A DNA stretch of 64,000 nucleotides from Agrobacterium albertimagni AOL15. Lineage in GTDB: Bacteria > Pseudomonadota > Alphaproteobacteria > Rhizobiales > Rhizobiaceae. The notes under the pieces are model-generated. The model did not search any database, was not told where the DNA came from, and was given only the letters and a program-made list of their open reading frames with translations. Position numbers and translations under genes: made by a program. This document shows, one piece after another, positions 1 through 3,617 of the stretch (position 1 is its first letter; the number at the start of each line of letters is the position of its first letter). The stretch is taken from the NCBI RefSeq assembly GCF_000300855.1, contig NZ_ALJF01000013.1:372001-436000 (forward strand), read 5' to 3'.

Positions 1-60
1 CAGTACTAGTGTTGAATTAGACTGTTTGTCGTCACCATTCGGAATAAGGCGGAGATTCTG

Positions 61-1491
61 TTGCCGAGTGCCAATTTTACCGGACTTAGCAAGCGTCAAA
101 TGGAAGTTCTGAGGCTGGCTCATGGAGGCCTTGGGACGAAAGATATTGGTGCTGCATTAGGTATAACTAACATAACCGTTGCAAGCCATCTGAACTCCGC
201 TCGAAAAAAAATAGGAGTTAGGTCTACTCGTGACGCCGCAGCAAAGTTTGCGGCTTTCGAAGCCGGTGAAAATGCCCATTTACAGAATACTGACATTTCT
301 AACGAAGATATTATCCATGTCCTATTGATGCGCATTGACGATTTCGAGTTATCTGTTCGTACGGCCAACGTCTTGATCGCTGACAACCGGGTATTTGTCG
401 GCGATTTAGTGCAGCTGACCGAGTTTGAGCTGCTTCGACTGCCAAATTTTGGTCGAAGAGCGCTCAACGAGATCAAGGAAATGCTAGCAAGTGTCGGGCT
501 GAGGCTCGGAATGGTTCTATCGAATTGGCCTCCTGACAACATCGAACAAGTTCGAGAGAAGCTCTCAATTGCCGCTAAGGTTAGAGGTATTCCTCAAGCG
601 AAACTAGGAACGACATTCAGGGCTGGTCAAGAGACGCTTGAGATCGCGGTGGATGGCAACGAGAGCGACGAGAGCGCTGCTTTGGAGTCGATCACGCAGC
701 AATTGCACCAAGAATCGAAACGCAAGTTGGAGGCGTTCAGCGAAGCAACAAAAACCCTTAGTAATCAGTATGGATGGTCGGACATCGATGCGTCTAATCG
801 ACGTTTCGTCAGTCTGCTGGACCGACCGACTGAAGATATACCGGCGGTTATAGGCTTGGTTTATAGCTCGGCTCTTGAGCTAGGATCGTACCTCGAGTTG
901 GACAATCAGTTACGATCAGGTGAAGTCAGCTACGCTGAAAGCCTAAGACCAGAGGTTCGCCGTCTACTTGAAGATGTTGTTAAAACCGTAGCGCCTTGGG
1001 TGCGGCGATTTCCGTCTGCTCGAGAAATCGACAACGAAACCGGCGAGTTTTTATCACAGATCACTTTGGTTGCGCATGCGCGTGAGGCCACAGAAACGGC
1101 GTTACGAAGCGCGCTGATCGCTGAAGACATAGCCGAGACTGTCCGTGCCCTCCTGGCATCAAGCGATCGCGCGGGCGCTGTTAGCTATAAGGCTTCTACG
1201 CGCGGTGTGCTTTCAGCACGTAATATGGTCATTGCGGCTGCAACGGCTGCGACGACTGTATGGCTGGGCGCTGTCGGCTCCGAATTGGCCCCTCAGTCCG
1301 TTCTTGCGCAACGTGCGGCAGGGTTTCTAGCTTCTGCAGAAGCGCCCATTGTTCAGCTTTTCAAAGATCTGCCTTCGGACATTCAGCTCGCAATCAACAT
1401 GTTGATCAAAGAGGTGAACCAAAAACCTTTCACAGTGCCGTCACCTCTGCCAGATGGACGCCGTCCGATTGCCAAAAAAAAACACGACTAA
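61..1491 (+). CDS. LuxR-type HTH fused to an RNA polymerase alpha C-terminal-domain-like module; large unknown C-terminal region
   Basis: The protein has 476 residues. The start is TTG at 61, preceded by the ribosome-binding site AAGGCGGAG at 46-54. Residues 7-62 read as a LuxR/GerE helix-turn-helix, with the [12 protein letters not shown] entry and the [11 protein letters not shown] recognition helix. Residues 93-158 align without gaps to my recollection of the E. coli RpoA C-terminal domain, about 40 of 66 identical. R100 matches R265, N103 matches N268, N129 and G131 match N294 and G296, and the sigma-contacting pair D259/E261 is present as D94/E96. K298 and S299 are replaced by R133 and A134. 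The domain ends in a conserved NWPP. Residues 170-476 are unassigned; 386-406 is hydrophobic and could be one membrane helix. Codon use is more AT-rich than in neighbouring genes, suggesting acquisition. A role in transcription is inferred from the two DNA-binding modules. The domain calls are firm; the function is unknown. Confidence 0.85.
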
Positions 1492-1826
1492 TTTCGGTAT
1501 CGATCATACCTTTGACAGAAGCCCGCAATCGCGTCTGTTGGCATAAAAGCCCTCCATCTGGGCTACTTCGGAGCTGTTGTCGAATTCGGTCAACCAAAGT
1601 GTACCGGCCATTTTCCTCTGTTTGGTTCTAAAGCAGTCAGGTTGATGACAGTCCGCCGCTGCCAAACGCCGCCGTCCACCACAGTCTAATCCAGTCACCC
1701 CCAACACCACGCAGCCTTGACAAATCAGGCGCACCATGCGCTTTTCCGCCCGATTTTCTATCGGCTGGCCGTGTGCCGAAATCTTATGCCCGCCAGCCGT
1801 CTACCAGTCCAGGAAAGCACTTGATC
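1492..1826. other. Intergenic region between the accessory gene and aspS
   Basis: About 335 bases with no convincing gene. Short open frames here lack ribosome-binding sites or familiar residues. I see no clear intrinsic terminator after the HTH-alphaCTD gene and no tRNA remnant. The last stretch carries the aspS ribosome-binding site at 1811-1817, and the aspS promoter must lie in it. The boundary between the AT-richer accessory DNA and core DNA probably falls here. Confidence 0.5.
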
Positions 1827-3617
1827 ATGCATCGTTACCGCAGCCACACCTGTGCCGCTCTTCGCAAGTCCGACGTCGGGCAGACCGTCCGCCTCTCGGG
1901 CTGGGTCCATCGCGTTCGTGACCATGGCGGCGTGCTCTTCATCGATCTGCGCGATCACTATGGCATCACCCAGGTCGTCGCCGATCCGGACAGCCCGGCC
2001 TTCAAGGCAGCTGAAACCGTGCGTGGCGAATGGGTCATCCGCATCGACGGCCTGGTCAAGGCCCGGACGGATGATACCGTCAACAAGAACATGCCGACCG
2101 GCGAGATCGAGCTTTACGCTCAGGAAATCGAGGTTCTCTCGGCCGCCAAGGAACTGCCGTTGCCGGTCTTCGGCGAACCCGACTATCCGGAAGACGTGCG
2201 CCTCAAGTACCGCTTCCTCGACCTGCGCCGCGAAACCCTGCACAAGAACATCGTCAAGCGCACCCAGATCATCTCGGCGATGCGTAACGGCATGGCCGCT
2301 GCCGGCTTTGCCGAATATTCGACCCCGATCCTGACGGCCTCGTCGCCGGAAGGCGCGCGCGACTTCCTCGTGCCGAGCCGTATCCACGAAGGCAAGTTCT
2401 TCGCGCTGCCGCAGGCGCCGCAGCAGTACAAGCAGCTGTTGATGGTCGCCGGTTTCGATCGCTATTTCCAGATCGCGCCCTGCTTCCGCGACGAAGACCC
2501 GCGCGCCGACCGTCTGCCGGGCGAATTCTACCAGCTCGACGTCGAGATGAGCTTCGTTACCCAGGAAGACATCTGGGCGACGATGGAGCCGATGATGACG
2601 GAAGTCTTCGAGCAGTTCGCCGAAGGCAAGCCGGTCACTAAGGAATGGCCGCGCATTCCCTACGATGTCGCGATCCGCAAATATGGCTCCGACAAGCCCG
2701 ACCTGCGCAACCCGATCGTGATGGAAGGCGTCACCGACCATTTCCGCGATTCCGGCTTCAAGGTCTTCGCCGGCATGATCGCGTCGAACCCGAAGGTCGA
2801 GATCTGGGCGATCCCGGCGAAGACCGGTGGTTCGCGTGCATTCTGCGACCGCATGAACGCCTGGGCGCAATCGACCGGCCAGCCGGGCCTCGGCTACATC
2901 TTCTGGAAGGAAGAGGACGGCAAGATTGCCGGTTCCGGCCCGCTCGCCAAGAACATCGGCGAAAAGCGTACCGAAGCGATCCGCACCCAGCTCGGTCTCG
3001 AAGCGGGCGATGCCTGCTTCTTCGTCGCTGGAGACCCGGCCAAGTTCTACAAGTTTGCCGGTGAAGCCCGCACCCGCGCCGGCGAGGAACTGAACCTCGT
3101 CGATCGCGACCGCTTCGAAATGTGCTGGATCGTCGACTTCCCGTTCTACGAATACAACGAAGACGAAAAGAAGATCGACTTCGCCCACAACCCCTTCTCG
3201 ATGCCGCAGGGTGGTCTGGAAGCGCTGGAAAGCCAGGATCCGCTCTCGCTCAAGGCCTATCAGTATGACGCCGTCTGCAACGGCTTCGAAATCGCCTCGG
3301 GCTCGATCCGTAACCAGTCGCCGGAACTGATGGTCAAGGCTTTCGAGAAGGTCGGCCTTTCGAAGGATGACGTCGAGGAACGCTTCGGCGGTATGTACCG
3401 TGCCTTCCAATACGGCGCCCCTCCGCATGGCGGCTGCGCCTTCGGCATCGACCGCGTGGTCATGCTGCTCGTCGGTGCGAAGAACCTGCGCGAAATCTCG
3501 CTCTTCCCGATGAACCAGCAGGCTCAGGACTTGCTGATGAACGCCCCGTCGCCGGCGACGCCCGCTCAGCTGCGCGATCTGTCGCTGCGCGTCGTTCCGC
3601 AGCCGAAGAAGGACTGA
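1827..3617 (+). CDS. aspS: Aspartyl-tRNA synthetase
   Basis: This cytoplasmic class II synthetase charges tRNA with aspartate using ATP. It has 596 residues, normal for the long bacterial type. The order is an N-terminal OB-fold anticodon domain (about 1-110), the catalytic core with motif 2 around FRDED at 220-224, a GAD insertion, and motif 3 with GIDRVVML near the C-terminus. An upstream in-frame start exists at 1773, but ATG 1827 has AGGAAAG nine bases upstream and begins MHRYRSHTC, as typical alphaproteobacterial proteins do. Whether it is discriminating, or also charges tRNA-Asn, cannot be told from this window. It is followed by a strong terminator and stands as its own unit. Confidence 0.97.

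Follow-up and report, generated by a model that had tools for sequence, protein, structure and literature searches.

What might a protein do that joins, in a single reading frame, a DNA-binding helix-turn-helix (HTH), a copy of the C-terminal domain of the RNA polymerase alpha subunit (alphaCTD) and an undescribed C-terminal module? The gene that raises this question lies at 61..1491 on the forward strand of the window, the whole stretch of 64,000 nucleotides from Agrobacterium albertimagni AOL15 that was analyzed. It is one open reading frame of 476 residues with a TTG start, ahead of which a Shine-Dalgarno-like AAGGCGGAG (46..54, forward strand) was identified by eye. An earlier note on this DNA had described a single protein with a LuxR-type HTH and an alphaCTD-like domain; both domains are present, but the C-terminal 314 residues were missing from that description.

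The HTH occupies residues 9-60 (85..240, forward strand), where the Pfam GerE model (PF00196) matches with 48.7 bits against a cut-off of 23.5 (E 5.8e-13), in agreement with the GerE-type HTH previously placed at residues 7-62. Sigma region 4 was considered as an identity for this domain and rejected, with Sigma70_r4_2 reaching 22.8 bits (cut-off 25.7) and another model 16.2 bits (cut-off 24.1). In LuxR-type regulators the HTH is C-terminal and follows a sensor or receiver domain. The window protein shares with the GerE/LuxR/NarL-type regulators an HTH that scores above the cut-off, but here it is N-terminal and followed by the alphaCTD, and Pfam found no sensor, receiver or autoinducer domain.

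The alphaCTD spans residues 85-162 (313..546, forward strand), with a Pfam RNA_pol_A_CTD (PF03118) match over residues 85-143 at 56.1 bits (cut-off 23.8, E 3e-15). An HMM search for the two domains had been proposed as a check on the earlier reading; RNA_pol_A_CTD and GerE each stand above their curated Pfam cut-offs, far beyond chance, and the outcome named as fatal to that reading, the lack of a significant alphaCTD hit, was not seen. Among PDB sequences the protein matches an RpoA chain best (97.5 bits, E 7.3e-27), and all three alignments shown to RpoA chains in the PDB are free of gaps. The Escherichia coli chain 10ma_G aligns through its residues 249-326 with 84-161 of the window protein, at equal lengths and an offset of 165, which bears out the gap-free homology earlier claimed for residues 93-158. 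The stretch is 56% identical to the RpoA of the same genome (G000:C23), and no Pfam match to the alpha N-terminal domains was found in the window protein up to E 10. Judged from these alignments, the domain is a capture from RpoA, and from the gap-free homology to solved RpoA chains it is expected to adopt the tandem helix-hairpin-helix fold. It thus resembles the RpoA C-terminal domain over 84-161, and differs in lacking the alpha N-terminal domain and in its fusion with an HTH and with an unrelated module.

How much of the working surface of alphaCTD has been retained bears on what the copy could do. In the numbering of 10ma_G, R100, N103, N129 and G131 of the window protein are the equivalents of R265, N268, N294 and G296, and D94 and E96 those of D259 and E261. 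The earlier list of these six retained residues was therefore correct throughout but selective. We take the DNA-contact set of alphaCTD to be R265, N268, C269, N294, G296, K298, S299 and E302. On this set the window protein keeps five of eight positions (R265, N268, N294, G296 and E302) and carries V104, R133 and A134 in place of C269, K298 and S299. L006 from Pararhizobium sp. YC-54, the sole full-length relative found, keeps six (R265, N294, G296, K298, S299 and E302), its residues at 268 and 269 being T and A. The two proteins together keep four of the eight, and neither has the full set. N268, C269, K298 and S299 are invariant in our comparison set of 31 RpoA alphaCTDs (two rows identical, and one, L104, very divergent). 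Both fusion proteins retain R265. The window protein also retains D259 and E261; at 259 the residue of L006 is E, which most of the 31 RpoAs share. The earlier note had proposed that the protein might recruit or divert sigma or RNA polymerase, or act as an UP-element decoy; that no more than part of the DNA-contact face survives weakens the second of these in its simple form.

The main rival to the reading that we favor below is a regulator that places alphaCTD at promoters through its HTH. In this account the GerE HTH would sit on an operator, the tethered alphaCTD would contact sigma70 region 4, UP-like DNA or other activators, the protein thereby serving as one more, promoter-specific alphaCTD, and the module would sense a signal. 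Two adjoining domains of DNA-binding type and the retained equivalents of D259 and E261 speak for such a role; the N-terminal position of the HTH without a recognized sensor domain, and the changes at C269, K298 and S299 in the window protein and at N268 and C269 in L006, speak against it. A second protein also bears on the matter. A search of 289 genomes of the class with PF03118 gave two matches in 13 genomes, our own included, and among the other 12 were two alphaproteobacterial loci, L110 and L111, that encode the same protein. In L110 (1375-3162, forward strand) a 596-residue open frame combines an N-terminal alphaCTD (35.9 bits) with Sigma70_r4 (27.4 bits; Pfam on L110). It is like the window protein in uniting alphaCTD and an HTH-type promoter-binding domain outside RpoA, which favors the regulator, and unlike it in the reversed order, the weaker alphaCTD and a different C-terminal part. 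The combination of HTH and alphaCTD had been put forward as undescribed. That view stands for the GerE-alphaCTD pairing but has to accommodate the union of alphaCTD with Sigma70_r4 in L110: among the matches listed in the literature (titles and abstract openings, with most subscription journals outside the scope), we found no description of a GerE-alphaCTD protein, of the module or of a bacterial integrated decoy based on RNA polymerase. All told, we regard a regulatory role as a real contender, if a somewhat unlikely one. As a separate observation on RpoA-like genes, the 16.6 kb plasmid pBS5-3-2 of Yoonia sp. BS5-3 carries a full-length RpoA-like protein of 389 residues with a C-terminal extension (L014:8245-9414, forward strand), which is absent from the feature table shown.

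The window protein and L006 descend from one capture event. The 31 RpoA rows agree throughout at 28 positions, of which 22 are retained in the window protein and 21 in L006 (counted by hand), and both fusion proteins share R110, F112 and L127, found in 0 of 31 RpoAs. In a tree of 32 rows (30 RpoAs and the two fusion proteins) they pair with support of 100/98; both are long-branched, and the support covers that pairing. Given these shared non-RpoA states and the pairing in the tree, the two alphaCTDs are best read as one capture followed by divergence. That divergence is uneven along the protein. Identity between the two is 34/66 in the HTH, 2/18 in the linker, 48/78 in the alphaCTD, 21/28 over residues 163-190 and 220/286 over residues 191-476, so that the module is the best conserved part. 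Protein-changing differences per site fall from 0.325 in the HTH to 0.225 in the alphaCTD and 0.139 in the module (163-476), with silent sites between the two genes saturated; the N-terminal part has thus diverged faster than the module.

These figures bear on a further account, in which gene fusion left the alphaCTD as a passive by-product: the protein would act by way of its module, or be in decay, and its N-terminus would have no specific job. Such an account draws on the existence of only two alphaCTD members, on the lesser conservation of their N-termini and on the state of L006. There, the contig start, about 120 bases leading up to the gene (L006:1-125), matches a repeated element found in 149 plasmid records, and no usual start codon occurs where one is expected; with an insertion-sequence-like end adjoining and that codon missing, the L006 copy may be disrupted. 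We consider a passive by-product improbable, as the alphaCTD of two divergent genomes has kept an open frame free of gaps, with 48/78 residues identical, shows few protein-changing differences relative to silent ones (which are saturated), and retains its hydrophobic core and R265.

The conserved C-terminal module covers residues 163-476 (314 residues; 547..1488, forward strand), as delimited by conservation with L006 and more distant relatives. It has no match in Pfam, NCBIfam (among the best 25 of 29 matches), PADLOC or PHROGs, the listed matches all falling within the first 170 residues, and no credible match among PDB sequences (best E 0.41). The most hydrophobic segment coincides with the equivalent of residues 389-407 (1225..1281, forward strand) in 10 of 13 members scanned, where summed insertion values of 2.1 to 4.9 are marginal; it may represent a helix in the membrane or one in the protein core. 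Relatives were counted at E <= 0.001 in search sets that overlap and that include the query or centre genome, several of the searches scoring 5 to 10 candidates per genome. Matches occurred in 5/297 genomes of the family, 6/397 of the order (one weak) and 1/385 of the class, the last being our own genome, and in 3/219, 2/15 (one weak), 1/4 and 1/2 genomes of the families of other carriers. Beyond these, 1/72,556 plasmid records matched, from Methylobacterium currus, as did the phage contig L030. One of the five family matches, L011 (E 7.6e-4), lay inside an ABC-transporter-like frame and was dropped as chance. Thirteen members are clear: the window protein, L006, L008, L009, L010, L012, L015, L016, L017, L018, L030, L032 and L033. 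Two more, L019 (E 7.1e-4) and L035 (E 8.0e-4), were retained as doubtful, L035 because it shares an N-terminal domain with clear members. In viral contigs we found no confirmed relative of the whole protein or of the HTH plus alphaCTD, in scans that find close relatives, and phage records gave matches inside the alphaCTD only (6 records).

What precedes the module varies. The GerE-alphaCTD N-terminus is present in the window protein (by Pfam) and L006 (by alignment). A domain of the 'DLEAWL...REVA...ARAALR' type, often with an Ala-rich stretch behind it, is common by eye to L010, L015, L016, L032, L033 and the doubtful L035, and Pfam returned nothing credible for L010, L015 and L016. The N-terminus of L008 is lost at a contig end, and that of L009 has no domain recognized by Pfam. 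L012, L017 and L018 begin with a short stretch that by eye resembles an HTH, which might be counted in favor of the regulator, but Pfam finds no HTH in any of the three. Leucine-rich repeats are C-terminal in L017, L018 and L030 and stand at the start of L019 (Pfam). In the phage contig, the gene at L030:7563-9365 (forward strand) begins with an IF2_assoc domain (41 bits, cut-off 24), followed by the module and the terminal leucine-rich repeats; ORFs that by eye resemble phage structural genes run on the other strand. Its IF-2-like piece has no match among PDB sequences at E 0.1, and against phage records the protein matched 14 Listeria records, through the leucine-rich repeat part only. The regulator leaves this IF-2 fragment unexplained. 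L012, L017, L018, L030, L010, L015, L016, L032 and L033 are thus akin to the window protein in their C-terminal module, and differ from it in having neither alphaCTD nor GerE HTH by Pfam, a judgment made from the sequence for L032 and L033. Together, the alignments show what appears to be an undescribed, modular family in which a conserved module is shared and N-termini are exchanged. Two members of independent origin carry pieces of core gene-expression proteins, one the alphaCTD and the other a fragment of IF-2.

The gene sits at a site that changes its contents. The left end of the window (1..1697, no strand) is the right-hand part of a variable segment, as defined by blastn of the window locus (L004) against eight congeners; the segment, which starts about 270 bases to the left of window position 1, lies between a tetR-like gene upstream (by eye) and aspS, the aspartyl-tRNA synthetase gene (1773..3617, forward strand; Pfam tRNA-synt_2, tRNA_anti-codon and GAD). 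When tetR was searched in 40 relatives, eight congeners had it at 88-97% identity, and all eight were compared. In every one both flanks are conserved and the intervening DNA has no blastn match to the window insert, with the exception of a tetR 3'-end repeat in G237 and G1060 that does match it. The interval holds a C5 DNA methylase in G1062, a DUF4209/DUF7380 protein identified by PADLOC as PDC-S39 in G237, and MazF/PemK-like genes in G237 and G1060, the latter genes and the remaining cargo being read by eye. No direct or inverted repeats of 8-12 bases were found between the insert ends, and no tRNAs in six loci. Compared in this way, the interval behaves as a cargo-swapping site in the genus. 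A match covering both HTH and alphaCTD was found in 0 of 59 congeners among the matches listed, each best score being RpoA or the HTH alone. The GC content of the gene is 0.51, against 0.61 for the window, and its GC3 is 0.49, against 0.60-0.84 in the other ORFs listed. The low GC, the lack of a match to the fusion in 59 congeners and the swapped cargo in 8/8 congeners place it at an accessory location, and it is most likely a horizontally acquired, single-gene accessory. Scanning the insert for promoters and terminators gave no sigma70-type or promoter-like site and one terminator-like site, on the opposite strand near aspS; there was no match to Rfam.

The toxin-like genes at this site in G237 and G1060, and the close likeness of the domain to RpoA, might suggest a poison of transcription, in which the alphaCTD copy, being free, would draw off sigma, activators or partners of NusA type and so directly slow the transcription of host or phage, with the module doing no more than multimerize or anchor it. 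Set against this are the relatives that keep the module without any alphaCTD, the partly changed DNA and activator faces, and the lack of an antitoxin-like partner adjoining the window gene; we hold such squelching to be very unlikely.

The company that the module keeps was examined in 14 neighborhoods (L004, the window; L006; L012; L030; and L075-L084, with L083 and L084 belonging to doubtful members). Recognized defense genes lie in four of them: PDC-M11A twice and PDC-M11B near L006 (PADLOC), DarT and DarG upstream of L012 with one small opposite-strand gene in between, a CBASS-type cyclase and SduA of Shedu in L081, and BstA in L079. None was found in the other ten within the ORFs scanned, and none was recognized beside the window copy. 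For L075-L084 the scan covered 71 of the 110 ORFs that reach 120 residues, the other 39 being module genes, the separately scanned cyclase and frames that look spurious by eye; in L006 and L012 it took in part of the ORFs, and it excluded those of L030 and those upstream in L004. Further PADLOC model matches in L075-L084 were to IetS (one ORF), MzaA (two), mad2 (one), DndA (one), SspA (one) and reverse-transcriptase and DnaG-type models (two each). Eight ORFs were tried in order to place the matches, two of them positive (BstA and SduA), and the IetS, MzaA and mad2 matches have no assigned ORF. The DndA, SspA and DnaG-type matches were set aside as housekeeping look-alikes. As a control, the 57 other ORFs of the window, one region of one genome and no matched baseline, matched only WYL (two models), BrxL and DolB. 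The defense linkage of the module family is suggestive. The window protein itself has no credible model in PADLOC-DB 2.0.0, with only overlaps of its HTH with CARF3 models (best E 0.0022), and a described defense system was ruled out for the whole protein for want of a confident family match. L077 and the doubtful L084 lie near ORFs that look like dnaG and rpoD by eye, L084 directly behind the rpoD-like one.

The reading that we tentatively prefer is that of an accessory, probably anti-phage protein of mobile-element conflict, with the alphaCTD as a bait or targeting piece. The module would be the output part of the protein, and the captured housekeeping piece would notice interference with host transcription: a phage enzyme acting on, or binding, the alphaCTD copy would activate the module, while the HTH would tether the protein to DNA or autoregulate it. 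Several observations argue for this. A piece of RpoA was captured in one event common to two divergent proteins; the module recurs behind other N-termini, including IF2_assoc, and with leucine-rich repeats in L017, L018, L019 and L030; the N-terminal part diverges faster than the module; and the accessory location is joined by the defense genes in 4/14 neighborhoods. Phages also attack alphaCTD elsewhere, and R265 is kept in both fusion proteins. T4 Alt and ModA are described as ADP-ribosylating R265 of alpha (PMC2988021), and Rac of phage LUZ19 as leading to a cleavage that releases alphaCTD (PMC7552054). Against the bait stands the count of two alphaCTD members and one IF-2 member, so that the captured host pieces amount to two events, and the other N-termini, such as the Ala-rich domain, are not recognizable as host pieces. 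The lack of a recognized defense gene beside the window copy, and in ten of 14 neighborhoods within what was scanned, also weighs against an anti-phage role, as does the lack of a confident PADLOC match. Rather doubtful, in our estimate, is the proposal that the whole forms an undescribed, NTPase-free family of bacterial immune sensors in which captured gene-expression fragments (alphaCTD and the N-terminal region of IF-2) serve as integrated decoys before a common module.

In plants, integrated-decoy NLR receptors include, as part of the receptor itself, a domain that resembles a host target. The window protein is comparable in having a host-target-like domain fused to a receptor-like protein, and some module relatives have leucine-rich repeats; it differs in being bacterial and in having no NTPase, and by this analogy an immune role is a proposal. 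Bacterial NLR-like (STAND/NACHT) proteins have a central NTPase; no Pfam match to an NTPase was found in the window protein or in ten relatives scanned. What defines an integrated decoy, a built-in copy of a host protein attacked by parasites, has its counterpart here in the RpoA-derived alphaCTD, phage attack on which is described in other hosts (PMC2988021, PMC7552054). Among bacterial systems the proposed principle of watching a host protein or process is shared with bNACHT25, for which guarding of a host process involving DnaJ has been proposed; bNACHT25 is described as having a NACHT NTPase and guarding a separate host protein, whereas the window protein has the copy of the host piece built in (PMC12169576).

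Whatever its role, the module defines a conserved family of proteins that none of the four libraries searched (Pfam, NCBIfam, PADLOC and PHROGs) matches. If the protein is a regulator only, it would provide a natural alphaCTD on a DNA-binding protein, with which the capabilities of a tethered alphaCTD could be tested. Should it prove to be a bait, bacteria, like plants, would fuse attacked housekeeping pieces to a shared module as immune sensors, and from each such piece one could read off a process under phage attack in these bacteria.
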